NCBI RefSeq assembly: GCF_014518425.1
Contig: NZ_JACVCU010000003.1
Span: 1-64,000, forward strand
Direction: 5' to 3'
Source: Terrabacter sp. MAHUQ-38
GTDB lineage: Bacteria; Actinomycetota; Actinomycetes; Actinomycetales; Dermatophilaceae
Length of the DNA: 64,000 nucleotides
Part shown: piece by piece, positions 37,032 to 57,509 of the stretch
Position numbering within the stretch: position 1 is the first letter of the stretch
How the letters are laid out: every line of letters starts with the position of its first letter
Program-made: the position numbers and the translations under genes
Notes under the pieces: model-generated
What the model was told of the DNA's origin: nothing
The model's database searches: none
What the model saw: the letters and a program-made list of their open reading frames with translations, nothing else

Positions 37032-37649
37032 TCAGCCGCAGTTCGGGTTGAGCCCCGCGGGCACCGGAACCGCGCCCTGGATGTCGCACGACCCGCCACC
37101 GCTGGTGGCAGGCGGGGTCGAGAGCATCGGCGTCGCGATGTTGACGGGCGAGGTGTCGATCGCCGTACAGGTGCTGCACTCATACCGCTGGTAGTCCAGG
37201 CTGAACGAGGTGTTCTTGCTGTTCTGCTGCGTGTTCGTGTAGACGAAGATCCGCTGCGACGTGGCGTCGGGCGTGCAGAACGTGTTGCACGAGGTCGAAC
37301 CGGCAGGCGTGCACGTGGCGCAGGTGCAGGTGCTGCCGTTCGCGACGTAGACCTGGAAGCCGGTGACGAGCTGGCCGTTGACACGGACGTTGCTGATCAC
37401 CGTGACGCCGGTTGCCGGGTTGGGGCCCGGCGAGTTCGTCGCGATGAGCTCGAACACGTATCCCTTGAAGATGTCGTTCGCGTTGCCGGGGAGCTTGCAC
37501 GCAGCCCCGGTGAACCGCAGAGGGCCCTCGGACGCCGCCACCGTGGGCGCGGCCCCCGCGACCACGACTGCCGGCACCGCCCAGGCGGCCCCCTTGACGA
37601 CCGAACGACGACTCGGAGGCGCCGACTCGGCGCCGTGATTGTGTGACAT
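37032..37649 (-). CDS. Tat-exported protein with ten cysteines, unknown function
   Basis: I do not know the function. The 205-residue protein begins with a twin-arginine signal: SRRSVVKG (residues 13-20), a hydrophobic stretch and a cleavage site near VAAS (about 40). The mature part has ten cysteines (51, 108, 110, 113, 121, 125, 158, 161, 188, 204), including a C-T-C-x2-C cluster and a C-x2-C pair, and no other cofactor motif. A beta-sandwich-like region (FKGYVFELIATNSPG ... FQVYV) resembles short Tat-exported actinobacterial proteins of unknown role. It lies 96 bases after the PqqD-like gene in the same direction. Even cysteine number suggests disulfides, possibly made with the facing MauE-thioredoxin protein. 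Confidence 0.7.
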   Translation of the reverse strand: MSHNHGAESAPPSRRSVVKGAAWAVPAVVVAGAAPTVAASEGPLRFTGAACKLPGNANDIFKGYVFELIATNSPGPNPATGVTVISNVRVNGQLVTGFQVYVANGSTCTCATCTPAGSTSCNTFCTPDATSQRIFVYTNTQQNSKNTSFSLDYQRYECSTCTAIDTSPVNIATPMLSTPPATSGGGSCDIQGAVPVPAGLNPNCG

Positions 37650-37745
37650 GGATGAATCCCCCACTCGCTGACTGAAACCCCGAAGTGACTCGTCAATGTA
37701 TCGGAGCCCGCGGCCTCGGATGCCGGAAATCGCACACCTTGGGGG

Positions 37746-38099
37746 CTATCTCGACGCTCCCGGGCGAATGTCGTCCCCATTGTCCGTTTTGTGGCCCTGA
37801 CCTGCACTGATGACCTCGGCCGACAAGAGTGCGACGACGACCTCGAGCACCCTCTCGGCCAGGCCTCCGCCGGGTGGCGCCCCCAGTCGTGAACGCAGCT
37901 CGTCCTCGAGCTCGGCCAGGGTCGTCCCGCCGCCGATGGCGTCGAGGGCCTCGAGCCCGAGGGGTGAGAGCCGCACGACGCGGTGCAGCGGCTCGACCCC
38001 GACCATGACCACCGTGCCCTCGTCGGTCGTGAACTCGTCGACCAGGGGGATGCGCGCCAGGACCGTGTCCGGGTCGAGGGGTACGTCCACGCGGTTCAC
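37746..38099 (-). CDS. PqqD-like protein (RRE fold), copy 1
   Basis: Small winged-helix-like protein of the PqqD family, 117 residues. PLHRVVRLSPLGLEALDAIGG followed by TLAELEDELRSRLG is the typical PqqD pattern. PqqD domains act as recognition elements that hold leader peptides for RiPP modifying enzymes. Here there is no PQQ cluster. The GTG start overlaps the stop of the HPr-kinase-like gene (GTGA). The C-terminal 20 residues are an unrelated tail. Its job in a polysaccharide locus is unknown; binding a peptide or protein partner is inferred from the fold. Confidence 0.72.
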   Translation of the reverse strand: MNRVDVPLDPDTVLARIPLVDEFTTDEGTVVMVGVEPLHRVVRLSPLGLEALDAIGGGTTLAELEDELRSRLGAPPGGGLAERVLEVVVALLSAEVISAGQGHKTDNGDDIRPGASR

Positions 38100-38860
38100 C
38101 GGGACCTCCCCAGGATGTCCCGCACGACCGGCTCGACCTCGACGGCGTCGTGGTAGCGCACGCGCAGCAGGCCGCCGACCGCCTGGACGAGACCGGCCAG
38201 GCGGTGCAGCGGTCGCGCGACACGGGCCAGCGACGACGTCTCGGGCGCCAGCAGCACGAGGGCGTCGAGCACCTCGACCGGTTCGACGACGGGGGCCTCC
38301 CCGGCTCCGCGGTCGCGCCGGAGCAGGACGATCCCGGCCAGCCAGGGCTGCACCCGCGGGACGGTGAGGCCGAGGTCGACCGGGTTGACCTCGTCCTTCG
38401 GCAGCCCGGTGTCGGGGCGGCGGATCGACAGGGGCTTGCAGTAGGGCTCGATGCTGAGGTCGTCGGCGACGGCGACCGTCTCGTCGGAGATGTAGCCCCG
38501 TCCCGGTCCCAGGGTTCGGACCACCGTCGTCTTGCCCGTGCCACCGGGAGCCACCATGGCGATCGTGGCGCCCGACGTCTGGTCGCAGAGCGCCCCGGCG
38601 TGGAACATCATCACCTGTCCGGCCCTGGCGCTGATCGCCTCGCGGGTCACGAGCTGGGTCAGGCTCTGCAGCGCCACCGCGATGTCGTCCGGAGTGGCGC
38701 CCGGCAACACGGTGGGGGCCTGCACGACGGGGCAGCCGTCGACGGGGGACGTCGCGCAGGCGGACCAGGCCTGGAGGGCGAGCGGGCGCAGGCGCGGGTC
38801 GGTGACCTCGATGGCCACCGTCGCGCCGAGTGCCCGGACGTGCAGGAGAGAGTCGGTCAT
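38096..38860 (-). CDS. HPr-kinase-like ATPase associated with PqqD
   Basis: P-loop protein of 254 residues. Walker A is APGGTGKTT (104-112), preceded by FHAGAL and followed by YISDETVAV and CKPLSIRRP, the order seen in HprK-like kinases of lasso-peptide and related clusters, where such enzymes phosphorylate a peptide serine. It is far shorter than true HPr kinase and lacks its N-terminal domain. It is coupled by four-base overlaps to a glycosyltransferase gene upstream and a PqqD-like gene downstream. Substrate unknown; a peptide or a sugar-linked carrier are both possible. Confidence 0.68.
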   Translation of the reverse strand: MTDSLLHVRALGATVAIEVTDPRLRPLALQAWSACATSPVDGCPVVQAPTVLPGATPDDIAVALQSLTQLVTREAISARAGQVMMFHAGALCDQTSGATIAMVAPGGTGKTTVVRTLGPGRGYISDETVAVADDLSIEPYCKPLSIRRPDTGLPKDEVNPVDLGLTVPRVQPWLAGIVLLRRDRGAGEAPVVEPVEVLDALVLLAPETSSLARVARPLHRLAGLVQAVGGLLRVRYHDAVEVEPVVRDILGRSR

Positions 38861-40005
38861 GCGCGCCGGTCCCGGTCTCGGAGCCTGCCGATGACGTCGG
38901 AGAGCTGGTCCACGCGCCGTGACCAGTCGGCACCAGCCGCCCGCCCGGGATGGACTGCAGCAGTAGGGGCCTCGCCCCTCGAGAGGAGCCCGACGACGGC
39001 AGCCGTGAACGTCTCGTGGCCCGCGACCGTGACGAGCGGGTCCTCCACGTCGCGGAAGCCGGCCACGGGCGTCGACACGACGGGTCGCCCCGACGCCTGG
39101 TACTCGTAGAGCTTGATCGGGTCGAGGCTGTCGGTGAAGGGCGTGACGACGTGCGGCACGACCAGCACGTCGGCGTGCAGCACGTAGGCGGGCACCTCGG
39201 TGCTCGGCCGCGGGCCGAGGAGCACCACTCCGGCCGCCTCCAGGCGGCCACGCTGCTCGGGGACGAGCGCGTCCGGACCGACGAGCACGAGGTGCCCCGA
39301 GCCGGCGAGCGCGCGCGCGGTGCCGGCGCAGAGGTCGAGGTCGAGCCGATCTGCGTGGAGGGTGCCGACGTAGACGGCGCAGCGCCCCGCCGGCAGGTCG
39401 GCCGGCCGGTCGTGGACGACGGCGTATGCCGCCGTGTCGACACCGTTGGGCACGAGCGTCACCTCGCGGTCGGCGCCCTTGCTCGCGGCGAGAGCCGGGG
39501 AGCAGACGACGACCTCGTCGCAGCGCGCCAGCAGGACGTGCTCCTGTGCCACGATGCGGTCCGTCTCGGCGGCAGTGCGCTCGGCGAGCGTCCAGTCGTC
39601 GGTGACGTCGTAGAGCGAGGCCCAGGGCGTCGCCTCGACGAGCAACGACCCGGTCGGGTCGTTGACCCAGAGCAGCGGCTCGGTCATCCCCATCGAGCGC
39701 GTCGCCCGCAGCACCTGCCGTGCCCAGCGCTCGTCGACGCGACGGTCGACGCGACGCGGCAGCCACTTGGTCGGCTCGAGCAGCCACAGGGCCTCCGGAC
39801 GGACGCCGTCGACGGCGGGTGCCCGGCGCAGGCCACGGCCCAGACGTGGCTGGCCGGCGCCGAGCGCGGAATGGAGCGGGTCGGCGGCCGGCTCGACGAA
39901 CAGGACACGGAGGTCGGGGTCGCGCCGCAGCAGGCCTGCGACGAGGTGCTGGTTGCGGCGCCACACGCCGTCCCAGGCCTCCAGTGAGGTGATGACGAGG
40001 TCCAC
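38857..40005 (-). CDS. glycosyltransferase (GT4-like)
   Basis: Cytoplasmic glycosyltransferase of the polysaccharide locus, 382 residues, GT-B fold. The N-terminal half has SLEAWDGVWRRNQHLVAGLL and LLWVNDPTGSLL; the C-terminal half has LVPNGVDTAAY, YVGTLHADRLDLDL and PIKLYEYQASGRPVVST, the donor-binding region. The pattern resembles teichuronic-acid/TuaH-like transferases. GTG start one base after the preceding stop. Donor and acceptor unknown. Confidence 0.75.
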   Translation of the reverse strand: MDLVITSLEAWDGVWRRNQHLVAGLLRRDPDLRVLFVEPAADPLHSALGAGQPRLGRGLRRAPAVDGVRPEALWLLEPTKWLPRRVDRRVDERWARQVLRATRSMGMTEPLLWVNDPTGSLLVEATPWASLYDVTDDWTLAERTAAETDRIVAQEHVLLARCDEVVVCSPALAASKGADREVTLVPNGVDTAAYAVVHDRPADLPAGRCAVYVGTLHADRLDLDLCAGTARALAGSGHLVLVGPDALVPEQRGRLEAAGVVLLGPRPSTEVPAYVLHADVLVVPHVVTPFTDSLDPIKLYEYQASGRPVVSTPVAGFRDVEDPLVTVAGHETFTAAVVGLLSRGEAPTAAVHPGRAAGADWSRRVDQLSDVIGRLRDRDRRA

Positions 40006-40006
40006 G

Positions 40007-41038
40007 TCAGGCGACCGCCCCGCGGACGGCCGCGTAGACATCGGCCGTCTCGCGCGCCTGGTGCTCGGGCGTGAAGCGCTCGCGTTGGACGCGCTGCAGC
40101 TCGACGGCATACGCGTCACGGCGGGCGGTGTCGGCGGCGAGGCCGGCGAGCAGCTCGGCGGCGCGGCTCGCGTCGCCCGCAGGGTGCATGGCGGGTCTCG
40201 AGACGCTGCCGACGGTCTCGATGTGCCCACCTGCACCCACCGCGACGACGGGTAGGGCAGCGGCCATGGCCTCGAGCACGGTGAGGCCCAGGCCCTCGAT
40301 GCGGCACGGGGCGAGCAGGAGCCCGGCGCGCTCCATGAGCTGGGGCACGTCGCTGCGATGGCCGAGGAACTCCGTCGCTGCGGCGATGCCGAGCTCTCCC
40401 GCCAGCGCGACGAGACGTGCCCGCTCTGCGCCGTCACCCGCGAGCTCGAGGCGCCAGCCCCGGTGGGCGAGACCGGACAGCGCGAAGGCGCGCAGGGCCA
40501 CGTCGGTGTCCTTCTCCGGCTCCAGACGCTGTGCGACGAGAACGACCGGCTCACGGTCCGCCGCCGGAAGGGTCGTCGTCGTGGAGTCGACGCCGGGATG
40601 GATCACGATGCTCGGTGCGTCGATGCTCTCTGCGACGTAGTGGCTGATGGCGATCTGGGCGTCGACGCGTCGGGCGGCACCGGCTCCAGCCAGGGCCGAG
40701 ACGGGGTTGCTGCCGCGGTCTCGGGCGAAGTGCCGCGTGACGACGAGCGGCGTTCGCACGCCGACCAGCGCCGTGGCAGAGGCGATCTCGGCCGCGGTCA
40801 TGTGGGCATGGACCACGTCGGCGCTGCGCGCCAGGCGTCGGACGGTGGTGAGCACGTCGGTGACCGTCGTCGCGGGCAGGGTCCGTACGCCTTCGCCTGC
40901 GGCCTGCGCCATGCGCGCCGGATCGCCGCCGACCACGAGCACGTCGTCGCCGGCTGCCAGCTGCGCACGGGACAAACGTGCGACGTGGCTCTCGACACCC
41001 GCGAACGCGTCCGAGCGCACCGCGTGGAGGATCCTCAC
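40007..41038 (-). CDS. glycosyltransferase family 4
   Basis: GT-B glycosyltransferase, 343 residues. RILHAVRSDAFAGVESHVARLSRAQ at the N-terminus is the acceptor-domain start; VLVAQRLEPEKDTDVALRAFALS and APCRIEGLGLTVLEAMAAALPVVAV (E-x7-E) are donor-site motifs. It overlaps the next glycosyltransferase gene by GTGA. Specificity unknown. Confidence 0.82.
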   Translation of the reverse strand: MRILHAVRSDAFAGVESHVARLSRAQLAAGDDVLVVGGDPARMAQAAGEGVRTLPATTVTDVLTTVRRLARSADVVHAHMTAAEIASATALVGVRTPLVVTRHFARDRGSNPVSALAGAGAARRVDAQIAISHYVAESIDAPSIVIHPGVDSTTTTLPAADREPVVLVAQRLEPEKDTDVALRAFALSGLAHRGWRLELAGDGAERARLVALAGELGIAAATEFLGHRSDVPQLMERAGLLLAPCRIEGLGLTVLEAMAAALPVVAVGAGGHIETVGSVSRPAMHPAGDASRAAELLAGLAADTARRDAYAVELQRVQRERFTPEHQARETADVYAAVRGAVA

Positions 41039-42192
41039 CTGGCTCCCCCGTCTGCAGCGCGGAACGGTACCCCGCTGTCGCGCAGGCCGGTGAGGACCTC
41101 GAGGTAGCGGCGGGCCACGACCGCCCACGCGTGCTGCTCGGCGCTTGCCCGCGCAGCCTGCCGGAGCGGAGCGGGTTCTGCGGCCAGAACTCGCCTGAGA
41201 CCCTGCGCGAGCGCCTCGACGGTCGCGTCCACGACGGCCCCGTTGACGCCGTCGGTCACGACGTCGGGCACGCAGCCGGTGGGCGTCGCGACCACGGGCA
41301 CCCCGCACGCGAGGGCCTCGAGGACGACGAGGCCGTACGACTCGTACGCGCTCGGCGTCGCGAGGACGTCGGCCGCATGCAGCCACGGCCGAGGGTCGGT
41401 TTGGGCTCCGGCGAAGCGCAGGCGGGTGCCGAGCCGCACCGCGGGTTCGCGCCCGGCCTCGGCCGCGACGAGGTCGGGGGTGCCACCGACGACGAGGAGG
41501 ACCACGTCAGGCTGGAGGCGCGTCACGGCGTCGACGAGTAGGGGCAGGCCCTTGCGCCCGAACTCGTTGCCGATGAAGAGCACGACACGCTCGTCGGGGC
41601 CGAGACCGACGGCGGCCCGGGCCGCGTCTCGCTCGGCGGGCGTCGGGGGCCGGAACCGCTCGGTGTCGACGCCGTTGCCGATGACCACGGTCGGGATCGC
41701 GAGCCGTGGGTAGGCCTCGCGAAGGAGGCGGTCCTCGTCGGTGACGAGGTTGACGACGAGCTGGTGCGTGCCGGGGCGGGAGTAGCGCAGCCGGTCCCGC
41801 GTGGTCGTGAAGAGGTGGAGCGGGTTGCGGACCATCCGCAGCGCGTAGTGGCCCCGGGCTCGCATCGCCGCCTGGACGATGCCGTGGTTGACGTAGACGT
41901 CGCCGGCCAGGGCGTCGTTGTGGCAGATCGACAGCTGCTCGGGGTGGGCCTGCAGGTGGCGCCGGGCACGCCGGGTGCCGACCGTCGAGAACCACACGAC
42001 CCGGCCGATGAGGGCGAGCCGCCCGCCGACGCCGCCCGAGGGCGCGGGGAGCCAGCCGCCGCCGGCCTCCCTGAGTGTGAACCGGTGCACGTCGACACCG
42101 AGCGCGCGCCACTCCTGCTCGAGGTGGTGCGCCACGGCGCCGACTCCCGTGCCCGGCCCGATCTCTGGAGTGATCTGGACGATGGTCGTCAT
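41035..42192 (-). CDS. glycosyltransferase family 4
   Basis: GT-B glycosyltransferase, 385 residues. ITPEIGPGTGVGAVAHHLEQEW at the N-terminus, VVIGNGVDTERFRPP, VLFIGNEFGRKGLPLLVDAV and TPSAYESYGLVVLEALACGVPVVATP (E-x7-E) are present. ATGA overlap with the polymerase gene upstream. Specificity unknown. Confidence 0.83.
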   Translation of the reverse strand: MTTIVQITPEIGPGTGVGAVAHHLEQEWRALGVDVHRFTLREAGGGWLPAPSGGVGGRLALIGRVVWFSTVGTRRARRHLQAHPEQLSICHNDALAGDVYVNHGIVQAAMRARGHYALRMVRNPLHLFTTTRDRLRYSRPGTHQLVVNLVTDEDRLLREAYPRLAIPTVVIGNGVDTERFRPPTPAERDAARAAVGLGPDERVVLFIGNEFGRKGLPLLVDAVTRLQPDVVLLVVGGTPDLVAAEAGREPAVRLGTRLRFAGAQTDPRPWLHAADVLATPSAYESYGLVVLEALACGVPVVATPTGCVPDVVTDGVNGAVVDATVEALAQGLRRVLAAEPAPLRQAARASAEQHAWAVVARRYLEVLTGLRDSGVPFRAADGGAR

Positions 42193-43544
42193 GCGGCCGC
42201 CGCCGGCGCAGGCGTCCCCAGGGGGTCGGACCCGGTCGCGGCGACACGTTCGTCGCGACGGTCGGCATGCCATTTCGCCCCGAGACAGATCCCGAGCACG
42301 ACGAACGGGAGCGAACCCTGGACGGCCGCCCAGAAGAGGTCGAACTGCCCCTGCACGAGGCGGGCCACGAGGACCGCGACGGCGAGCGTGCCATAGGTCG
42401 GGTCGAGCCGCCACGCGACACGGAGGGCCACGTACATCAGGGCGAGGAAGGCGACGAGACCGACGACGCCGGCCGACGTCAGCACCTCGATCTCGGCGTT
42501 CGGCGGCTGGAACTGGAACGGGAAACGGTCGGTGTACCACCAGCGCAGGCCGACACCGAACCACGGGTCGGTGATCCAGACGGTGACGGAGTCCTGGAAC
42601 CACGTGAGCCGCTGGAAGACGGAGTTGAACTGGTTGTCGGACTGCACCTGGTCCTGGACGAGGTTCGTGACGAACACGATGAGGGGCGCGAGGACGAGGA
42701 GGGTCAGCTTGGACCGCTTGCGGTCGGTGTTCGAGCGCAGCACGAGGACGAAGATCGCGGCCACGACACCGATGATGGCCTGTCTCGACTGGGTCGCGAG
42801 CACGGCGAGCAGCATGAGCAGGACCAGCGCACGGCTCACGCGTCGCGACAGGCCGGCCCAGTCCGGACGGGCGTAGACCATGACGACTCCGATGCCGCAC
42901 AGCGTGCCGGCGAAGTTCTTGTGCATGTTGTACGGGAAGGTCGGGTAGACCGGTGAGAGGTCGCCCTGCGAGATGTGGACCGCGCCCTCCACGACGGTGA
43001 TCACCGCGACGATCGCGGTGGTCCAGACGAGCAGGCGCACGCCGATGCGCCCGTGGCCGTTGGCCCCGACCGCCCACCCGACGAGCAGTGAGCCGGACAC
43101 CATCATCCAGGCGTGCACCCACTCCACGGCGTTGGCGGAGTACGGGTTGTTGACGACGGTGACGAGGGTCGCGAACTGGTAGACGGCCGAGGCCCACAGC
43201 ACTGCCCGGATGCCGGGCGCGAACGGCCGCTTCGCGAGGAAGATCGCAGGCAGGCTGGCAGCTGCGAGCGCGAAGTCCGAGAGCGAGAGGTCGACGCCCC
43301 CGCTGCCGACGCGCATGACGACGAGCAGGAGCGGCAGCACTGCGACCGGGATGAGGCCCGGCTGCACGGCAGTGAGGCCCGCGGCGAGGACGGCGACGGA
43401 GATCACGATGGCGGCCTCCGGCACGGTCACGGCAAGCCGTCCGACGACCGCGACGAGGGCGACGGCGGCGAGGGCGAGACCGACCTGCACCGCTCGGTCC
43501 GTGCCGCCCCGCCCGCGAAGGCCCTGCGGGATCACGCCGGCCAT
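42189..43544 (-). CDS. wzy: O-antigen/exopolysaccharide polymerase (Wzy/WaaL-like)
   Basis: Polytopic membrane protein of 451 residues with about twelve hydrophobic segments. A large external loop contains MHKNFAGTLCGIGVV and later FQRLTWFQDSVTVWITDPWFGVGLRWWY followed by QPPNAEIEVLTSAGVVGLVAF; the H/N-rich loop and the G-x-G...PNE-like region are marks of the Wzy_C/O-antigen ligase family. With Wzx in the same locus it would join repeat units outside the membrane. The start (MAGVIPQG) overlaps the end of the upstream gene by 13 bases. Confidence 0.72.
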   Translation of the reverse strand: MAGVIPQGLRGRGGTDRAVQVGLALAAVALVAVVGRLAVTVPEAAIVISVAVLAAGLTAVQPGLIPVAVLPLLLVVMRVGSGGVDLSLSDFALAAASLPAIFLAKRPFAPGIRAVLWASAVYQFATLVTVVNNPYSANAVEWVHAWMMVSGSLLVGWAVGANGHGRIGVRLLVWTTAIVAVITVVEGAVHISQGDLSPVYPTFPYNMHKNFAGTLCGIGVVMVYARPDWAGLSRRVSRALVLLMLLAVLATQSRQAIIGVVAAIFVLVLRSNTDRKRSKLTLLVLAPLIVFVTNLVQDQVQSDNQFNSVFQRLTWFQDSVTVWITDPWFGVGLRWWYTDRFPFQFQPPNAEIEVLTSAGVVGLVAFLALMYVALRVAWRLDPTYGTLAVAVLVARLVQGQFDLFWAAVQGSLPFVVLGICLGAKWHADRRDERVAATGSDPLGTPAPAAAA

Positions 43545-45580
43545 GATGCCTCCGACGACCGCACCGACGACCGCACCGACGACCGACCCGTCGGCGCCGA
43601 CGGGTCGGCCACCGGCCGGGAGTCCTCGGGGCGCACCTCGGAGCGCAGCGGACCGCGCAGGTAGAGCCGGACCCGAGCGCGGGCGTCGCGGCCCCGCTCT
43701 CCGGGCAGGACCAGACTGCGGACCGCGGAGCCGACCACCTGCCCGGCACGGCTCACCTGCCAGCCGAGTGCCCCGAAGTGCTTGCGGAGGTAGACCTCCT
43801 GCGCCGCATGGAAGTGACCCTCGCGGCGCGTGGGGTCGGTGCTCGTGGCCGCACCCACGTGCTCGGCCCGGGCCTGGGGCACGACGGCATGACGCCAGCC
43901 CAGCCGGCTCGCCCGGTAGGCCCAGTCGGTCTCCTCGGCGTAGAGGAAGAAGCGCTCGTCGTCGAAGGGCCCGACGTGCTCGATCGCCTCGCGCCGCAGG
44001 AGCAGCACGGACCCGATGACGTAGCGGTCGCGACGCAGACGGCCCAGGCCCACGGCATCGACCCACGTCGCGAGCGGGGACGGGAAGGGCCACTCGACGC
44101 GTGACGGGGAGCCCGTCGCGTCCACCTGGACGGGTCCGACGCTCGCGAGGTCGGGGTCGGCCCGCAGGGCGGAGTGGAGAAGGGCCACGTCTGCAGGCTC
44201 GACCACGGCGTCGGGGTTGACGAGGAGCACGTCGGCGCCCGGGTCGACTACGCGCAGCGCCGCATTGACGCCAGCGGCGAAGCCGCCGTTGCGGCCCGGG
44301 TCGACGTAGCGGACTCCACCCGCCCTGGCCGTGGCGCGTACGGCGGGCGATGACGAGTTGTCGATGACCGTCACCGACAGGTCGCGCAGCGGGGTGAGCG
44401 CCTTGGCGAGGAGCTCGGGCTGGCCGTACGCCACGACGACGACCTCGAGAGGCCGGTCGCGGGCAGCTCCGGCCGTCTGGCTCCGGTGGGTGGCCGCGGC
44501 GTACATGGCCTCGTGCTCCACGGCGATCCGCTCCCACGAGGTCGCGGCCGACCGTTCCAGGCCTGCAGAGCGGAGCCGCGCCGCCACGTCCGGGTCGGAC
44601 ACGACCTCGGCGAGCGCATGGGCGAGCTCGACCTCGTCCCCCTCGCGGACGACGAGCGCCGCGTCCCCGACGACGAGCGGCAGGGCGCCGCTGTCGCTGA
44701 CGACGACCGGGGTGCCGCAGGCCATGGCCTCGACGGCGACGCGGCCGAACTGCTCGACCCACGAGGGGGTCGTCAGGGAGGGCACGGCGATCACGTCGAC
44801 AGAGCGGTAGAAGGCGGGCAGCGACTCGGGCGGCAGGGCGCCGAGGAACTCGACCCGGTCGGCGATGCCCAGCGATGCCGCGAGCGCCTCGAGCTCGCGC
44901 CTCCGGGGACCGTCGCCGGCCACGCGCAGGCCCAGGTCGGGCTGGAGGGCGACGGCGCGCAGGAGCACGTCGACGCCCTTGGCGGCGTCGAGGCGACCGG
45001 CGAACCCGGCGACGGGCAGGTCGCGCGGCGTGCCGTCGTGCGCAGCCGGCGTGAAGACGGTGAGGTCCGTGCCGAGGTCGATCGTGCGGGCGCGCCCCGG
45101 GAACCCCTTGCGCTCGGCGATGCGGCCGGCGGCGGCGTTGCAGACGTGGACGCCTCGCGCGTGACGCAGCACCGCTCGCTCGAGCCAGCGGAACGGAACG
45201 GGGTGGCGCTTGTCGATGTTCTGCGCCGAGTAGAGCAGGTAGGGAGCGCGCTGCCGGCGAAGCCAGCGCAGCAGGAGCACCTCGGCCGTGGCCAGGGCGT
45301 ACGGCTCCTCGTGGATGTCGATGACGTCGACCGGCCGGCCGAGGGCACGCCAGAGGGGTCGGGGGTCGTAGAGGAACAGTGCGGGGTGCGAGCCGATCGT
45401 GCGTGCCGCGACGACGTCCTCGCCCGGGCGGGCGGCGAGCGCGACGACGCGACCGCCCTCGGACCACGACGCGGCCGACACGACGTCGACCCGGTGGCCC
45501 CGGCGGCGCAGCGCCCGCTCCCTCTCGCGCCAGGCGTCGACCACGGCGCTGTGGGACACGCGCAGTGCCCACACGACCAT
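43532..45580 (-). CDS. GT4-GT2 fusion glycosyltransferase
   Basis: Single chain of 682 residues with two glycosyltransferase domains. Residues about 1-365 are GT4: YSAQNIDKRHP, VAGFAGRLDAAKGVDVLLRA and PSWVEQFGRVAVEAMACGTPVVVS. Residues about 375-640 are GT2, rhamnosyltransferase-like: LEVVVVAYGQPELL, VTVIDNSSS, RYVDPGRNGGFAAGVNAAL, LLVNPDAVV (D-x-D equivalent) and FFLYAEETDWAYRASRLGW. The C-terminus carries RSSVRSSVRSS from a 12-base repeat. It may add two successive sugars. ATG start with GGGGAT upstream; first gene of the leftward chain of overlapping genes. Confidence 0.82.
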   Translation of the reverse strand: MVVWALRVSHSAVVDAWRERERALRRRGHRVDVVSAASWSEGGRVVALAARPGEDVVAARTIGSHPALFLYDPRPLWRALGRPVDVIDIHEEPYALATAEVLLLRWLRRQRAPYLLYSAQNIDKRHPVPFRWLERAVLRHARGVHVCNAAAGRIAERKGFPGRARTIDLGTDLTVFTPAAHDGTPRDLPVAGFAGRLDAAKGVDVLLRAVALQPDLGLRVAGDGPRRRELEALAASLGIADRVEFLGALPPESLPAFYRSVDVIAVPSLTTPSWVEQFGRVAVEAMACGTPVVVSDSGALPLVVGDAALVVREGDEVELAHALAEVVSDPDVAARLRSAGLERSAATSWERIAVEHEAMYAAATHRSQTAGAARDRPLEVVVVAYGQPELLAKALTPLRDLSVTVIDNSSSPAVRATARAGGVRYVDPGRNGGFAAGVNAALRVVDPGADVLLVNPDAVVEPADVALLHSALRADPDLASVGPVQVDATGSPSRVEWPFPSPLATWVDAVGLGRLRRDRYVIGSVLLLRREAIEHVGPFDDERFFLYAEETDWAYRASRLGWRHAVVPQARAEHVGAATSTDPTRREGHFHAAQEVYLRKHFGALGWQVSRAGQVVGSAVRSLVLPGERGRDARARVRLYLRGPLRSEVRPEDSRPVADPSAPTGRSSVRSSVRSSEASWPA

Positions 45581-45689
45581 TCCATCCCCCAGTCTCCCGT
45601 GCCCTCCGCGGATGTCTCGGACTCGGCACAACCTCTTGGATGATATGGGAGGATGCTCCCACGTACCGACGAGTTGGCCGGGGGGCTAG

Positions 45690-47099
45690 GTGACGTTTCG
45701 GGAGTTCCTCAACGTGCTGGCAGCGCGTTGGCGGATCATTGCACTGAGCCTTCTTGCGGTGATCGCGGCCACGTCTGTCCAGACGATCATGACGCCTGCC
45801 GTCTACACGTCCACGGCCAAGATCTTCCTGTCCGCCACGCAGCCGCCCGATCCGGGCACCGGCGAGCAGGTCGCGACGTATGCCGTGAACTCCGACGACC
45901 TCGCGAGATACCTCGACGTCCTCAACGCCCCATCGGTCATCGAGCCCCTGCGTGCGCGACTGGGGCTCGCACCGGGCACGCCCATCTCGGTGGCCGGAGA
46001 GGTCTCACAGACCTCCAACATCATGACCATCACCGCCACCGGCGGTGACCCGGTGCTGCTGGCCCGCATCGCCAACGAGGCCGGGCCGGTGCTCGCGGAC
46101 GTCGCGACGAAGAAGTTCTCGCCCCTGCTCGCCGCCAACGGCCAGTCCGTCGAGGCGACCACGATCCAGCCCGCGACCGTGCCCGGCGAGCCGGTGTCAC
46201 CCAACGCCAAGCGCAACCTCATGCTCGGTGGCCTGCTGGGCCTGGCCCTCGGCACCGGGCTCGCACTGTTGCGCCACACGCTCGACACGAAGGTGCGCAC
46301 CGAGGACGACATCAAGGCCCTGTCCAAGCGGCCGATCCTCGGCGACATCCCGATGGTGAAGTCGGTCAAGGACGGTCTGCTGTCCCTCGAGAGCGACCCC
46401 CACGGCCGCCACGCCGAGTCGATCCGGCGCCTGCGCACCAACATCCTCTTCGTCGATGTCACGACCGCCGGCCACTCCTTCGTCGTCACGTCGTCCGTGC
46501 CCGGCGAGGGCAAGACGACGACGACGATCAACCTCGCGCTCGCGATGGCCGACGCCGGCTCGAAGGTGCTGCTCATCGACGGCGACCTGCGCAACCCGTC
46601 GGTCGCCCGCACGATGGGGCTCGACGGCTCGTTCGGTCTGACGACCCTGTTGCTCGGCCTGGCCGACCCCGAGGACGTCATCCAGCGCTGGCGGCAGTCC
46701 ACCCTCCACGTGCTGCCGGCCGGGCCGGTGCCGCCCAACCCGAGCGAGCTGCTCGGGTCGGAGCCCATGGAGATCCTCTTCGGCAAGCTCGCCCACGACT
46801 ACGACTTCATCCTCGTGGACAGCCCACCGGTCGTGCCCGTCATCGACGCGGTGCTCATCAACAAGCTGACGCACGGGCTCATCATGGTCGTCGGCGCCGA
46901 CCGCACGAGGAAGCGCGACCTCGCGAGTGCCGTGCAGTCGCTCGAGACCGTGGACGTCCCCGTCGCCGGGTTCGCGCTCAACATGGCGCCGGTCAGCTCG
47001 TCGACGGCGCACCGGTACGGCTACTACGGCTACAACCGCGACGCCGACGTCAAGCTGAGCCGACGGCAGAAGCGCGCGCGGGCCAGGCACCAGGCCTGA
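45690..47099 (+). CDS. Wzz/BY-kinase (Wzc-type chain-length regulator and tyrosine autokinase)
   Basis: Controls polysaccharide chain length and export, 469 residues. A Wzz domain spans two membrane helices (about 16-36 and 176-195), then a cytoplasmic BY-kinase domain: Walker A SVPGEGKTTT (269-278), Walker A' LLIDGDLR (295-301) and Walker B FILVDSPPV. The C-terminal YGYYGYNRD is the tyrosine cluster that is autophosphorylated. Both parts are in one chain, as is usual in actinobacteria. The GTG start has a G-run upstream; GGGAG/CTCCC forms a small hairpin at 45647-45660. Its phosphatase partner is probably the LMW-PTP at 61.6 kb. Confidence 0.88.
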   Translation: MTFREFLNVLAARWRIIALSLLAVIAATSVQTIMTPAVYTSTAKIFLSATQPPDPGTGEQVATYAVNSDDLARYLDVLNAPSVIEPLRARLGLAPGTPISVAGEVSQTSNIMTITATGGDPVLLARIANEAGPVLADVATKKFSPLLAANGQSVEATTIQPATVPGEPVSPNAKRNLMLGGLLGLALGTGLALLRHTLDTKVRTEDDIKALSKRPILGDIPMVKSVKDGLLSLESDPHGRHAESIRRLRTNILFVDVTTAGHSFVVTSSVPGEGKTTTTINLALAMADAGSKVLLIDGDLRNPSVARTMGLDGSFGLTTLLLGLADPEDVIQRWRQSTLHVLPAGPVPPNPSELLGSEPMEILFGKLAHDYDFILVDSPPVVPVIDAVLINKLTHGLIMVVGADRTRKRDLASAVQSLETVDVPVAGFALNMAPVSSSTAHRYGYYGYNRDADVKLSRRQKRARARHQA

Positions 47100-47114
47100 G
47101 TCGCGTCCGCTGCG

Positions 47115-47396
47115 TCAGGCGTCGGGCGGACCGTCCTCGATGAGGCGGCGCTCGCGCAGGTCCGAGACGAAGGCCTCGACGTCGGCCCAGATGGCTGCCG
47201 ACGGCTCGCCGACCGACGCGGCCACTCGCTCGACCCAGCCCTCGGCGGGCGCCGTCGTGCCCTCGTCCCAGATGACCGCGGCCGCGCCCTCGAGCACGAG
47301 GATGGGGCCCGCGGGCAGGTGGGCGAGGTAGACCGTCTGCCCGTCGTCGCTCACCGTGACGCCGGTGTGGGAGCCCGGGCGGAAGGCGGACGTCAC
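47115..47396 (-). CDS. PqqD-like protein (RRE fold), copy 2
   Basis: Small protein of 93 residues, the usual PqqD length. TVYLAHLPAGPILVLEGAAAVIWDEGTTAPAEG followed by VERVAASVG and a helix ending FVSDLRERRLIED matches the PqqD pattern, though more divergent than copy 1. The GTG start overlaps the stop of the nucleotidyltransferase-like gene (GTGA). It converges with wzc across 15 bases. Confidence 0.6.
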   Translation of the reverse strand: MTSAFRPGSHTGVTVSDDGQTVYLAHLPAGPILVLEGAAAVIWDEGTTAPAEGWVERVAASVGEPSAAIWADVEAFVSDLRERRLIEDGPPDA

Positions 47397-48295
47397 GCGC
47401 CGTCCCCCTCTCGCTTCCGACCGCGGCGCCTGAGCTGCTCGCGCAGTCCCCGGGCCGGCCGACCGAAGAACTCCGCCAGGACCTCGCCCCGGCTCACGGG
47501 CCGGCCCCGGACGATGGTCAGGTGCTCGACGTTGACGAGCACCGACCGCGCTGCGACGCCGACCTTGCCGCGCAGACCGTGGGCGGCCCGCACCCGGGCG
47601 CGCCACTCCTCGACCCGAGTGCCGCCGAGTGCTGCGACGCGCCACAGGTCGTAGGCCGGGTCGTCGCGGTGGTCCTCGAGGGTGCCGGTGATGACCGAGA
47701 AGCCGAGGCCGGCGTCGAGCCGGTCCACCCAGGCGCGGATGCGGTCGCGCTGGGCCTCGTCGACGGACGTCCAGACGGCCTCGACGTCGAGCGCTGCCTT
47801 GGGGTCCTTCCCACCGCGTGCGGCGTGGAGGAGCAGGAGGGCCGCCTGCGCGTCCCGGGACGGCACCGCGCACTCGACGCCACCGAGCGTCACGGTCGTG
47901 TGGTCGCGCCAGAGCTCGTCGAATGCGGCCTCGGGGTCGGGCCCCGTGCCGGGGAAGATCCGGTGCAGGTCGAGCAGACCGAAGTCCTTGTGCCGCAAGG
48001 TCGCCGAGTGCTCGAAGGAGGAACCGTAGGCGAAGGAGTTGATGAGCTCCCAGCCGTGCCCGCGCAGCTCGTCGAGGAGCAGCCGCACCTGCCCCGGGCG
48101 GGCGAGGACGTCGGCGTCGGAGTAGCCGCGAACCGGCACGAGGGTCGGGTCGAGCGCCGCGCCCTTGACGTGCAGCAGGTCGGCTCCGCAGCGGTCCGCG
48201 ATCCACTGGAGGGAGGCGTGCGCGAAGCCGATCCGAACCTCGAGAGGAACCGACGCCCCCGCTGTCGGGACCTCCGTCGCCTCGTGGGTTGCCAT
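47393..48295 (-). CDS. nucleotidyltransferase-fold protein (PF14907-like)
   Basis: Putative nucleotidyltransferase of about 300 residues. DLLHVKGAALDPTLVPVRGYSDADVLARPGQVRLLLDEL contains the conserved K-G and the D-x-D that stand for the metal site of this uncharacterised family; LRHKDFGLLDLHR follows with further acidic residues. Proteins of this type occur with PqqD and HprK-like genes in lasso-peptide and polysaccharide clusters. An ATG 15 bases upstream is an alternative start. Coupled to PqqD copy 2. Substrate unknown. Confidence 0.65.
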   Translation of the reverse strand: MATHEATEVPTAGASVPLEVRIGFAHASLQWIADRCGADLLHVKGAALDPTLVPVRGYSDADVLARPGQVRLLLDELRGHGWELINSFAYGSSFEHSATLRHKDFGLLDLHRIFPGTGPDPEAAFDELWRDHTTVTLGGVECAVPSRDAQAALLLLHAARGGKDPKAALDVEAVWTSVDEAQRDRIRAWVDRLDAGLGFSVITGTLEDHRDDPAYDLWRVAALGGTRVEEWRARVRAAHGLRGKVGVAARSVLVNVEHLTIVRGRPVSRGEVLAEFFGRPARGLREQLRRRGRKREGDGA

Positions 48296-48362: not shown

Positions 48363-49088
48363 GTGCCGCATCGCGATCGTCTCGGGTGGGCCGGTCTGGG
48401 AGTCGTCGCCGGATTCGGTCTCGTCGCGGTCGCGCTGTTCTCGACGCGCACCGACCTCGGCCGCTCGCTCGACGACGCGGTGCGCAGCTGGGTGCTCAAC
48501 ACGCTGCCCGGCTCCTTCCGCCGGGCGCTCAGCGACCTGGTCCGCCCCCTCGTCGTCGTCGCCCTCGCACCCGTCGTCGTCGTGCTCGCCCTGCTCGCCC
48601 TCGTGCGCCGGTCCTGGCGGCGCGCGCTCGCCGGCGTGGTGGTGCCGGTGGCGTCGACCCTGCTGGCACTCGAGGTGCGCGTCCGAGACCTCTTCGGGAT
48701 CGGCGACGACGCCTTCCCGTCCAACCATGCGGCTGCGGGCCTCGGCCTGCTCGTCGGCGTGGCGCTCGCGTGGCCGAGGCCGGTCACCAGGCGCGGCCTC
48801 GTCGCCCTCGCCGCCGCCGGGTTCTGCATCGGGCTCGGCAACGTGTCGTGGTACGCCCACCTCCCCCGCGACGTCGTCGGCAGCTTCCTGCTCGTCGTGT
48901 GCGTCGCCGGGCTCGTGCTCGCCGCGCTCGGTGGCGACTCGCCGAACCTTGCCGACGACGTCATCCCCGTCCGCCCGTCGGTGAAGGCACCCGACGACAC
49001 GGGAGCGACCGGCCCACGATCGGACGCGACGGGGCGGGCGGCCCCGCCCGGGCTTCAGGAGCCGACGGACCGCCAGACCCGCGCGTGA
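48363..49088 (+). CDS. PAP2-superfamily membrane phosphatase
   Basis: Membrane protein of 241 residues, probably a lipid phosphatase such as undecaprenyl-diphosphate phosphatase that recycles the carrier lipid. Motif 2 is PSNH (119-122) rather than PSGH, and motif 3 is WYAHLPRD with His166 and Asp170; motif 1 is weak. About five to six helices are followed by a hydrophilic tail of 50 residues. The GTG start is 67 bases from the divergent nucleotidyltransferase start; the last 34 bases overlap the end of the next, opposed gene. Confidence 0.72.
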   Translation: MPHRDRLGWAGLGVVAGFGLVAVALFSTRTDLGRSLDDAVRSWVLNTLPGSFRRALSDLVRPLVVVALAPVVVVLALLALVRRSWRRALAGVVVPVASTLLALEVRVRDLFGIGDDAFPSNHAAAGLGLLVGVALAWPRPVTRRGLVALAAAGFCIGLGNVSWYAHLPRDVVGSFLLVVCVAGLVLAALGGDSPNLADDVIPVRPSVKAPDDTGATGPRSDATGRAAPPGLQEPTDRQTRA

Positions 49089-50116
49089 CCCTCGGCGCTC
49101 GCCTCCCACGTGAAGCGCCGCGCACGCTCGAGGCCCCTCCGCGCCATGGCCTCGACGTCCGGCCCGCCCGTGAGGACGTCGAGGACTCCCTGCGCCAGCG
49201 CGGCCCCGGTCGGCTCCACGAGCAGGCCTCCGTCACCGACGACCTCCGGCAGCGACGAGCGGTCGGAGGCCACGACGGGGACGCCGGTCGCCATGCCCTC
49301 GAGGGCGGGCAGACCGAACCCCTCGACGAGTGAGGGCACGACGACGACCGACGCGGCGGCATACAGCCCCGGGAGCACGTCGTCGGCGACGCGGCCGACG
49401 AGGCGCACACCCGGCAGCGACCCGAAGAGCTCGGTGCGGCGGGAGTGGGGCGGTCCGGCGAGCACCAGGGTCATGTCGGGACGCGCGGCCTTCACGCGCG
49501 GCCACGCATCGGCGAGTGCAGCGAGGTTCTTCCGCTCGGACGCGCCGCCGGCGGTCAGGACGTACGGCCCGGTGACCCCGAGCCCGGCCAGGACGTCCGG
49601 CGCGAGTGGCCGCGCACCGAAGTAGCGTGCCTCGACCCCGTTCGGCACGACGACCGGGTCGGTGAGGCCGAGCAGCTCGACCGCCTCGGCTGCCGTGAAC
49701 GCCGAAACGCACACGACGGCGGACGCCCGGCGCAGCTCCTCCGCGGCCGCGCGGACCGGCGCCGACTCGTCGGCGTAGCGCCACGCGACGACGTCGTGGA
49801 GCGTGACGACCTCGCGTGGGGCGGGCGGCAGCTCGAGGGCCATCCGGTGCACGAGCCCGGCGCCGGCGTACGCGAGCCGGCCGGCCGCCCCCCGGGCGCG
49901 CGGTGACGCTCCGGTGAGCCAGCCCATGGGCAGGCGTCGGGTGCCCGGCAGCGGCGAGCGCATCGACCGCGCGACGAGCCGTCGCACCTCCCACTGCTCC
50001 CCCGGCGCCGCCAGCGTGTCGAGGGCCGCGTCCGCGCGCGACGTGACATGGCGCTCGTATGCCTGTGCCCCCATGGGTACCGCCGTCGCGGTGGTGACGA
50101 TGGTGAGACGGGGCAC
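49055..50116 (-). CDS. glycosyltransferase family 4
   Basis: GT-B glycosyltransferase, 353 residues. VTLHDVVAWRYADES, VVPNGVEARYF, VLTAGGASERKNLAALADAWPRVK and VPSLVEGFGLPALEGMATGVPVVASD (E-x7-E) are typical. The GTG start (VPRLTIVTTA) is weakly supported. Its end overlaps the PAP2 gene by 34 bases on the other strand. Confidence 0.82.
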   Translation of the reverse strand: MPRLTIVTTATAVPMGAQAYERHVTSRADAALDTLAAPGEQWEVRRLVARSMRSPLPGTRRLPMGWLTGASPRARGAAGRLAYAGAGLVHRMALELPPAPREVVTLHDVVAWRYADESAPVRAAAEELRRASAVVCVSAFTAAEAVELLGLTDPVVVPNGVEARYFGARPLAPDVLAGLGVTGPYVLTAGGASERKNLAALADAWPRVKAARPDMTLVLAGPPHSRRTELFGSLPGVRLVGRVADDVLPGLYAAASVVVVPSLVEGFGLPALEGMATGVPVVASDRSSLPEVVGDGGLLVEPTGAALAQGVLDVLTGGPDVEAMARRGLERARRFTWEASAEGHARVWRSVGS

Positions 50117-50254
50117 GCGTGGGTTCCTGCCTCTCGGGTGCGCTGGGGGTGCTCGGGCGTGCGGTCGGAGTCCGGGACGGAGCCGCCCTCGCATCGTAGG
50201 GTGAGACGGCACGCCGGCCTGTCGACCACGCGTGTCCGATCGAAAGGAGCCGCG

Positions 50255-51523
50255 GTGGGTCGTCGCGTCGCCCTCGTCACCTCGTCCTACCATCCGTACC
50301 TCGGCGGGGTGGAGTCGCACGTGCGTCACCTCGCGCGTGAGCTGCGCAGGACGGGGACCGAGGTCGAGGTGTGGACCGTCGACCGCGGTGAGCACCTCGG
50401 TGTCACGGAGCTCGACGGCACGGTCGTGCGCCACCTCCCCACCCCCATGCCGGCCCGTTCGGCCCGGGCCGTCGCCGGCTTCGCGATTGCCGCGCCGCGC
50501 GCCTGGCACGCCTGGCGGGCGGCCGTGCGCGCCTTCCGGCCCGGGCTGCTGCACGTCCAGTGCTTCGGACCCAACGGGGTGTATGCCGCCGCGCTGGCTC
50601 GCCGGACGGGCATCCCGCTCGTCCTGTCGAGCCACGGCGAGACGTTCACGGACGACCACGACGCATTCGGCACGTCGGCCCTGCTCCGGGAGGGCCTCCG
50701 GCACGCCATCGCGCACGCCGTGGCGACGACGGGCTGCTCCGAGCAGGTCCTCGAGGACCTGCGCCAGCGGTTCGGACTCGTCGGCGGCTCCGTGGTGCCG
50801 AACGGTGTCGGGCCCGTGCCGACGGCCGCGCCCTCCGGCGCGATGCCCGACACCCTCGGCCTGGCTGACGGACCGGTCGTGCTCGGCGTGGGCCGGCTCG
50901 AGGTCATGAAGGGGTTCGACCTGCTCGTCGAGGCGTTCGCCGGGGTCGACGCCGACCTGGGCGCCACGCTCGTGCTCGGTGGCGCCGGCTCGCAGCACGA
51001 GGCGCTGCGGGCTCTCGGCGAGCGGCTCGACCTCGGAAAGCGCCTCCGACTCGTCGGGCCGCTCGACGAGGCCGGGGTCGACGCGTGGATGCGCCGGGCC
51101 GACGTCGTCGTCATGCCGAGCCGCCGCGAGGCCTTCGGGATCGTGGCGCTCGAGGCCTGGCGGGCCGGGGCACCGCTGGTGGCCACGAGCCTGGGTGGGC
51201 CGGCGTCGTTCGTCACCGACGGCGTCGACGGCCTGCTCGTCGACCCGGTCAACACGGGCGCCTTGGCCGACGCCGTCGAGTCGCTGCTCCGCGACCCGCA
51301 GCGACGCGCCGCCCTCGGGGCGGCCGGGCGGACGTCGGCGCGCCGCTACACGTGGTCGGTTGTCGCGGAGGCGTACGAGGCGGTCTACGACGACGTGGAC
51401 TCGCACGTCCGGGCCGCCGACGCGAGCGGGCCGCTCCGCGGCGGGCTGCGTCGGCGCGGGCTGCTGCGGGTCGCGTCGCGGACCCTCAGGCTGGGTGCGG
51501 CTCGTCGGCGGCGCGGGCGGTGA
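50255..51523 (+). CDS. glycosyltransferase family 4
   Basis: GT-B glycosyltransferase, 422 residues. RVALVTSSYHPYLGGVESHVRHLAREL, SSHGETFTDDHDAFG, VVPNGVGPV, VGRLEVMKGFDLLVEAFA and MPSRREAFGIVALEAWRAGAPLVATS are present. AAAGGAG lies at a proper distance before the GTG, so unlike many neighbours it has a normal leader; TAGGGT near 50197 may be its -10. Its 3' end overlaps the flippase gene by 38 bases on the opposite strand. Confidence 0.83.
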   Translation: MGRRVALVTSSYHPYLGGVESHVRHLARELRRTGTEVEVWTVDRGEHLGVTELDGTVVRHLPTPMPARSARAVAGFAIAAPRAWHAWRAAVRAFRPGLLHVQCFGPNGVYAAALARRTGIPLVLSSHGETFTDDHDAFGTSALLREGLRHAIAHAVATTGCSEQVLEDLRQRFGLVGGSVVPNGVGPVPTAAPSGAMPDTLGLADGPVVLGVGRLEVMKGFDLLVEAFAGVDADLGATLVLGGAGSQHEALRALGERLDLGKRLRLVGPLDEAGVDAWMRRADVVVMPSRREAFGIVALEAWRAGAPLVATSLGGPASFVTDGVDGLLVDPVNTGALADAVESLLRDPQRRAALGAAGRTSARRYTWSVVAEAYEAVYDDVDSHVRAADASGPLRGGLRRRGLLRVASRTLRLGAARRRRGR

Positions 51524-54135: not shown

Positions 54136-54138
54136 CGG

Positions 54139-55113: not shown

Positions 55114-55119
55114 GGCAGG

Positions 55120-55125
55120 AGTATC
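55120..55125 (-). promoter_or_regulatory. -10 element of the GT2 gene (predicted leaderless)
   Basis: GATACT on the minus strand, six bases before the ATG. Confidence 0.35.
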
Positions 55126-55189
55126 GCATCGGATCTGCGCGTGCGTGGCTGACCGGGAGATCCCGTTTGCCCCGGTGGGCGGCCTGCGG

Positions 55190-56293: not shown

Positions 56294-56299
56294 CTGCCG

Positions 56300-56305
56300 A
56301 ATCTA
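56300..56305 (-). promoter_or_regulatory. -10 element of the GT4 gene at 55.2-56.3 kb (predicted leaderless)
   Basis: TAGATT on the minus strand, six bases before the GTG; divergent from the next glycosyltransferase gene. Confidence 0.45.
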
Positions 56306-56335
56306 GCGTCCAACCCGCCCCGAGGATCGGACACC

Positions 56336-57454: not shown

Positions 57455-57509
57455 CGCCAGGCGCGGCGACGGGGGTCGGCCGTCCTGGGGCAGGCACTCG
57501 AGGGGGACC

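Follow-up and report, generated by a model that had tools for sequence, protein, structure and literature searches.

The closest described counterparts of the gene set analyzed here modify small peptides. In the pathway for linear polyphosphorylated peptides (LPP; LppA/K/B/S/D/N), described for the Bacillota in May 2026, a RiPP (ribosomally synthesized and post-translationally modified peptide) recognition element (RRE) is combined with an HprK-like kinase and an NTP transferase, the leader reads Y-x-x-P-x-V, and Ser3, just beyond a signal-peptidase-type cleavage site, is polyphosphorylated (PMC13381572). The same source gives [Y/W]-x-x-P-x-[LVIFA] as the motif bound by discrete lasso RREs and by LPP RREs too, and describes LppN as inactive in the host tried. 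In lasso peptide clusters, the kinases PadeK and PsmK phosphorylate a serine residue, and the addition of hexoses to this phosphoserine depends on PsmN, annotated as a nucleotidyltransferase (PMC9266682). Nor is an export signal on a precursor unprecedented: the DUF2282 precursors accompanying DUF2063 RREs carry a Sec signal followed by variable leaders, in which reportedly no specific RRE motif was found (PMC12710340).

Here we analyzed a stretch of 64,000 nt from Terrabacter sp. MAHUQ-38 (GCF_014518425.1, NZ_JACVCU010000003.1:1-64,000, forward strand), referred to as the window, whose numbering is used throughout. A first-pass annotation had described a polysaccharide locus with a lasso-tailoring-like set of two PqqD proteins (here PqqD1 and PqqD2), an HPr-kinase-like ATPase and a PF14907-like nucleotidyltransferase (NT), and had named a ten-cysteine protein with a twin-arginine translocation (Tat) signal next door as one possible client. 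This reading is partly supported by our results: the tailoring-like set without lasso genes stands, while the tie to the polysaccharide is, as observed here, one of neighbourhood. We found that the kinase, PqqD1, PqqD2 and the NT are one module. Judged from its sequence, the Tat protein is the likely client, an assignment for which the RRE-binding motif in its export signal gives better support than was available before; signals of this type also concentrate beside the kinase. We regard it as rather probable that this Tat signal is read by an RRE and doubles as a RiPP-like leader for modification of the exported client by the kinase and the NT. What is new is that the recognition tag sits inside the export signal; neither an RRE motif inside a Tat signal nor such a system was found in the open-licence literature searched.

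The kinase, PqqD and nucleotidyltransferase genes

Genes were called by codon statistics and the window proteins scanned with Pfam and NCBIfam, the Pfam scan covering the 20 genes at 37032-58745. For comparison, 60 kinase loci of the window's family were fetched and their genes labelled with profiles built up from the proteins of the window. A set of 80 loci was chosen by the kinase alone (tblastn; Terrabacter, Humibacillus, Nocardioides, Propioniciclava, Arthrobacter and others, some genomes contributing two loci). It covers up to 8 kb on each side of the kinase and was labelled with profiles derived from the window's family, so that a gene missing from a locus is not equivalent to one missing from the genome; in 7 of the 80 loci the kinase found by tblastn was missed by the gene caller or the best label. 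At genome level, 149 genomes of the window's family (E≤0.001) and 393 at class level were scanned, the latter with the kinase profile at E<1e-50, a separate 36-residue signal profile at E≤0.001 and a threshold of E<1e-30 for a strong NT match.

The four genes adjoin each other in varied orders in family loci (L043, L050, L059 and L080): L043 carries PqqD2-HprK-PqqD1-NT in a row, L080 the client followed by an HprK-PqqD1 fusion, the NT and PqqD2. L052 has the order Wzc-HprK-PqqD1-NT-PqqD-client; none of its genes received a Wzy or glycosyltransferase (GT) label. By best label, the 80 loci contain PqqD1 in 72 cases (18 of them fusions), PqqD2 in 34, the NT in 26, and the kinase together with the other three in 21; counts by any profile are higher (PqqD1 75, PqqD2 46, NT 28) and include cross-matches between the PqqD1 and PqqD2 profiles. 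Among the 149 family genomes, the kinase was detected in 91, the NT in 84 and the client profile in 81. Kinase and NT occurred together in 79 and kinase and client likewise in 79, with the kinase only in 12, the client only in 2 and neither in 56. Counted by genus, the kinase and the NT are each present in 36 and the client in 34 of 53. Since the genomes are related, the p-values of this co-occurrence (1e-22 to 1e-28) should not be read literally. At class level, a strong NT match accompanied the kinase in 19 of 22 kinase-bearing genomes and was found in one other genome.

No Pfam family scores above its cut-off with the ATPase, whose best NCBIfam match, HprK_rel_A (TIGR04352), reaches 20.9 bits, far under the cut-off of 200. 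HprK_rel_A is a family associated with a PqqD protein and an NT. Since a search of the PDB with the kinase profile recovered P-loop proteins only among the matches listed, we turned to the predicted fold. The model (57-sequence alignment, mean pLDDT 97) matched PEPCK best in Foldseek (E 5.5e-5), together with HPr kinase 3tqf (E 7e-4), both with probability 1.00. H87, K110, D126 and E127 are invariant in all 57 sequences, a set close to the His-Lys-Asp-Asp motif described for lasso kinases (PMC9266682). On the basis of the model, the ATPase is HprK-like by predicted fold and motifs and not by sequence score, and the earlier assignment was right at the fold level. In several loci (L065, L067, L072, L074, L075, L082, L083, L090 and L093) a gene of ~850 aa lies beside the kinase.

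For both PqqD copies the match to PF05402 stays under the cut-off of 23.4 bits (18.5 for PqqD1; 22.3, just below, for PqqD2), though their profiles find PqqD 3g2b (E 0.0012 with PqqD1) and lasso RREs. The PqqD2 profile matched TbiB1 best among PDB entries (E 6e-11), next to PbaB1 (9x90, 8e-6), LppB (9x8z, 9e-6) and TfuB1. Its cleft-splitting residue is F in 18 and Y in 2 of 21 sequences, hence aromatic in 20 of 21, and position F-4 is D in 17 and E in 2; in LppB the cleft Phe and the acidic F-4 position touch the leader (PMC13381572). By these sequence comparisons PqqD2 is lasso-RRE-like, with the predicted leader-binding cleft residues kept. In PqqD1 an aromatic residue takes the place of the cleft Phe in 1 of 26 sequences (25 lacking the aromatic pocket residue) and Asp occupies F-4 in 1 of 26; PqqD1 was therefore rejected as a leader reader. 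Wherever PqqD1 is fused to the kinase it forms the C-terminus, the kinase coming first in each case (L176, L180, L185, L188, L194, L196, L198, L201-L204, L206 and L208-L213); such fusions are frequent in Arthrobacter and Pseudarthrobacter.

The NT scores above the PF14907 cut-off, in agreement with the earlier assignment, and Asp60, Asp62 and Asp109 are invariant in all 19 sequences. The genome encodes a second PF14907 protein (G000:C1:1481872-1482366; L033), which the profile of the module's NT does not match.

The Tat signal of the likely client and its linkage to the kinase

The likely client probably starts with the ATG at 37649 and comprises ~205 aa; its ten Cys were confirmed and its twin-Arg signal was read in the sequence, as claimed. 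The signal combines the RR motif with a hydrophobic core and an A-x-A-type site, and Tat export is predicted. For the mature part a beta-sandwich is predicted, whose fold matches are weak (target-normalised TM ≤0.49 among the matches listed) and weakly suggest an Ig-like or fimbrial sandwich type. Client homologues adjoin the kinase in many loci. Their mature parts are variable and contain 10, 8, 4 or no Cys, whereas the constant part is the signal, with the rough consensus S-R-R-[TS]-[VIL]-x-K-G-A-A-W-x-V-P-[AV]-[VI]-x6-P-A-x-A-[AG]-S. Counting from the Trp as position 1, 38 deduplicated WxxP signals show [VIL]6 in 38/38, P13 in 34/38, S18 in 32/38 and S or T at 18 in 35/38; W and P4 are fixed by construction in this table, the pattern behind these signals requiring W and P. 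Beyond position 18 no position is conserved above 12/38, and the conserved part stops at the predicted cleavage site. LPP leaders follow the scheme Y1, P4, V6, S19 (PMC13381572), so that the candidate Ser stands at position 18 from the aromatic residue here versus 19 in the LPP consensus.

These signals are concentrated around the kinase. Within the 80 loci, twin-Arg signals with WxxPx[VILMFAT] occur 44 times at ≤3 kb from the kinase and 10 times farther away, a rate ratio of 6.6; circular shifts within loci yielded a mean of 24 near signals, and none of 10,000 permutations reached 44. Loci with at least one near signal number 41 of 80 and cover 19 of the 33 genus labels. Ten swapped motifs produced 0-7 near and 1-11 far matches, nine of them with rate ratios of 0 to 1.5, and in a version based on gene calls WxxP signals were found 20 times near and 4 times far, other RR signals 13 and 14 times. 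The 393 class-level genomes contain the kinase in 22, the signal in 30 and both in 20, meaning that the signal is present in 20/22 genomes with and 10/371 without the kinase; it lies ≤3.2 kb from the kinase in 11 of the 22. One family of this set (f25) has a more remote kinase homologue (E 1e-9 to 1e-11), and in 4/4 of its signal-bearing genomes, chosen because kinase and signal both matched, the signal is ≤0.7 kb away. Combined, 15 of 26 genomes have a signal within 3.2 kb versus 0.16 expected. Computation shows that the genes form one module, and it gives their folds or families, the motif with its spacing and enrichment, and the co-occurrence.

The f25 clients (L114, L115, L117, L119, L120, L124 and L125) were found from the kinase side. 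Their signals read ...AAWTVPTVTAITLTPANAAS..., with AVWTVPT... in L119, L120 and L124; the version in L125, VVWAVPT...NAAV, is looser. A proline-rich stretch follows the signal, and those read far enough finish in an LPNTG- or LPDTG-like tail. In L117, L119, L120, L124 and L125 the same signal type is hence carried by seemingly wall-anchored proteins (LPxTG-like tails). A second client homologue with the same signal type is encoded outside the window and away from the module (G000:C12:730201-730797; L094), same-genus genomes likewise show a second match, and the class-level genomes G213 and G225 contain 14 signals of this type each. One module may serve many clients in a genome. Similar-looking signals with AAWSAS replacing WxxP occur one gene from WxxP clients in L175:10206-11075 and L193:10168-10662.

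Proposed mechanism and alternative explanations

Binding, phosphorylation, the NT step, the order of these events and a joining to the Wzy/Wzc polysaccharide are what we infer. PqqD2, as a lasso-type RRE, would bind WxxPx[VIL] within the client's twin-Arg signal in the cytoplasm and bring the client to the HprK-like kinase, which would act together with PqqD1. The kinase would phosphorylate the near-invariant Ser 17 residues past the Trp, at the predicted signal-peptidase site, and the PF14907 enzyme would next put a nucleotide or sugar on the phosphate. The Tat pathway would then export the folded, marked client, and cleavage by signal peptidase would expose the modified residue at or near the N-terminus, where the mark could serve to attach polysaccharide or be the final modification. 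The cytoplasmic part of this proposal draws on the motif, a structure-based analogy and the linkage. More tentatively, and with confidence somewhat short of even, we suggest a leader-directed marking system spread through actinobacterial families, in which the RRE reads WxxP in the Tat signals of a whole set of folded secreted proteins, and these are phosphorylated and then glycosylated or nucleotidylated at the Ser that is to become N-terminal, perhaps as a polysaccharide attachment point.

Several observations weigh against the proposal. The Asp at F-4 of PqqD2 corresponds to the Tyr-reading choice in LppB, whereas the clients carry Trp, and the W-reading PbaB1 has Gln at this position; the actinobacterial FusB1, described as relaxed, tempers this objection (PMC13381572). 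In L125 position 18 is occupied by Val, while L126 and L127 have Lys there, preceded by Thr at 16 and 17; the LPP kinase does not accept S3T (PMC13381572). The control for the Ser is noisy, with S at +1 in 10/32 WxxP signals versus 7/201 others, the controls including many non-signals. The NT is present in just 26 of the 80 loci, 39 of the 80 lack a near (≤3 kb) signal, and one swapped motif, WxxG, points in the same direction with a rate ratio of 6.0, on five matches. Half of the 22 kinase-bearing class genomes have signals that are distant or none, and ten class genomes have the signal without a strong kinase, four of which (f25) carry the distant kinase alongside. The genomes are related, and the 80-locus set and the family genomes and loci share sources; since several family genomes are also represented in the 80-locus set, the linkage and co-occurrence tests are not independent. 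Lastly, motif-bearing small open reading frames (ORFs) without an RR signal reach roughly double the density around the kinase (15 near, 10 far).

Among the alternatives, an unlikely one that fares best casts PqqD2 as a Tat-signal chaperone and gives the kinase a regulatory role; binding of the WxxP signal and phosphorylation close to the cleavage site would then gate export or cleavage, leaving no lasting mark on the mature protein. The end of signal conservation at the cleavage site fits this, as does the poor cleavage of the LPP precursor without phosphate (PMC13381572); however, the co-occurrence of the NT with the kinase in 79/149 family and 19/22 class genomes suggests further phosphate chemistry rather than a reversible switch.

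We consider it quite improbable that the true target is the polysaccharide pathway itself, be it Wzc, a lipid-linked sugar or another carrier, the Tat protein being a mere neighbour. The window kinase gene does overlap the preceding GT gene, and Wzc lies within ~8 kb of the kinase in 49 of the 80 loci, but a GT or Wzy is found in 25 only, and the WxxP signal tracks the kinase across genomes, also in loci without a labelled GT or Wzy. The first-pass annotation had suggested that the set may modify a polysaccharide-linked protein or peptide, or a sugar carrier, and had proposed a survey of Wzc/Wzy linkage; in these loci, chosen by the kinase alone, such a survey shows Wzc to be frequent and Wzy rare (11/80).

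Very unlikely, and set aside, is a separate small unannotated RiPP precursor as the true substrate with an unrelated Tat protein: although the closest enzymes work on peptides (PMC13381572, PMC9266682) and small ORFs with [YW]xxPx[LVI] number 0.77 near versus 0.47 far per 10 kb (0.29 versus 0.14 for the 15 near and 10 far ORFs left after removal of those overlapping genes), the 15 near ORFs share no common family by eye and the own genome has no PF13471 peptidase.

A lasso cluster was rejected likewise. At E≤0.001 the genome itself yields no match to PF13471 (lasso B2 peptidase), and no Asn-synthetase-like lasso cyclase is among the 20 window genes scanned, the rest of the genome not having been searched for it; the set is, as had been noted, one without lasso genes. 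In the 149 family genomes PF13471 matches 30 at E≤0.001, five of them above cut-off. Matches are strong (E<1e-10) in two genomes only, G090 and G142, neither with the kinase, and just over cut-off in two kinase-bearing genomes, G028 and G039, in frames of 1077 and 871 aa.

The window locus and related systems

The coordinates of the locus are given in Table 1. The GT/GT/GT/Wzy/GT chain extends over 38857-45580, with the kinase gene coming after, and overlapping, a GT gene, and Wzc is tail-to-tail with PqqD2. Pfam and NCBIfam bear out this chain and the adjoining wzc, and the reported overlaps (PqqD1/HprK-like/GT and PqqD2/NT) are each exactly four bases by the gene calls. The full arrangement is also present in close relatives (L034-L041, with L039 lacking a called Wzc gene), and the part from client to Wzy in Terrabacter, Terracoccus, Humibacillus and Intrasporangium loci; because it recurs in relatives, it is more than chance. 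The polysaccharide locus goes on at 48363-58745 with PAP2, a Wzx-like flippase, a Branch-family (PF02485) enzyme, further GTs and an acyltransferase. A PHROGs search with five proteins matched nothing at E≤0.1.

Table 1. Features of the locus in window coordinates
Feature	Position	Strand	Basis
Client, Tat-type ten-Cys protein (likely)	37032..37649	-	Gene call, sequence reading, structure prediction, homologues adjacent to the module in relatives
Codons for W-A-V-P-A-V within the Tat signal, matching the RRE-type leader motif [Y/W]xxPx[LVIFA]	37566..37583	-	Direct reading; motif from PMC13381572
Ser codon at Trp+17, candidate phospho-acceptor at predicted signal-peptidase site	37530..37532	-	Direct reading; acceptor role inferred
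PqqD1, PqqD-like partner of the kinase	37746..38099	-	Pfam, profile search, fusions in relatives
HprK-like kinase, predicted PEPCK/HPr-kinase fold; His87, Lys110, Asp126, Glu127	38096..38860	-	NCBIfam (weak), structure model, Foldseek, alignment
Glycosyltransferase (GT4)	38857..40005	-	Pfam
Glycosyltransferase (GT4)	40007..41038	-	Pfam
Glycosyltransferase (GT4)	41035..42192	-	Pfam
Wzy/O-antigen ligase-like polymerase (PF04932)	42189..43544	-	Wzy_C 51.4 bits (cut-off 31.7); Pfam, NCBIfam
Fused GT4-GT2 glycosyltransferase, single protein	43532..45580	-	Pfam
Wzc-type chain-length protein/tyrosine autokinase	45690..47099 (called from 45759)	+	TIGR01007 170.8 bits (cut-off 108); start probably 45690 by homologue comparison
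PqqD2, predicted lasso-RRE-like leader reader	47115..47396	-	Pfam, profile search, kept pocket residues
PF14907 nucleotidyltransferase (NT)	47393..48295	-	Pfam 38.9 bits (cut-off 31.2)

If the proposal is true, RRE-guided chemistry extends beyond small peptides, with a tag hidden in an ordinary export signal and many surface proteins marked. It would provide a function for PqqD, HprK-like and PF14907 genes that are common in some actinobacterial families and explain their occurrence without lasso genes, would offer a route to direct phosphate or sugar onto chosen proteins, and would bear on a question that the LPP paper leaves open, namely why such sets sit in polysaccharide loci.

In its logic, the proposed leader-directed marking would be analogous to PEP-CTERM or LPXTG sorting. 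In PEP-CTERM/exosortase systems, too, many secreted proteins that are otherwise unrelated share one signal, whose occurrence across genomes follows that of a dedicated enzyme; they differ in that the C-terminal sorting tail contrasts with an N-terminal Tat leader and a proposed cytoplasmic modification here. The DUF2063/DUF2282 systems share RRE-associated precursors with an export signal, whereas the signal here is of the Tat type and contains WxxP (PMC12710340). The paeninodin and pseudomycoidin lasso clusters (PadeK, PsmK, PsmN) have an HprK-like kinase and a nucleotidyltransferase in common with the module (PMC9266682), and the paeninodin type also an RRE with a WxxP leader (PMC13381572), but here PF13471 was not detected in the genome, no cyclase is among the genes examined and the client is a secreted protein.

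The LPP pathway is alike in its discrete RRE, HprK-like kinase and NTP transferase, where the likeness of the NT refers to the PF14907 score; in the [Y/W]xxPx[V/L] motif, a leader motif there and a putative one here, inside the Tat signal of a protein of ~205 aa; in the acceptor Ser, a candidate here, shortly past a signal-peptidase-type site; and in the location of its clusters in polysaccharide loci (PMC13381572). It differs in having its own SipW-like peptidase, an MsbA-like exporter and precursors of 35-200 aa, and is described as Bacillota-restricted, whereas here the leader would be a Tat signal on whole proteins and two PqqD proteins are present. Neither a SipW-like peptidase nor an MsbA-like ABC exporter was found with Pfam among the 20 genes at 37032-58745, and because these components, which help to define LPP, were not found in the genes examined we do not class the set as LPP. 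The module rather appears to be a protein-scale relative of the LPP peptide pathway, present in many actinobacteria.

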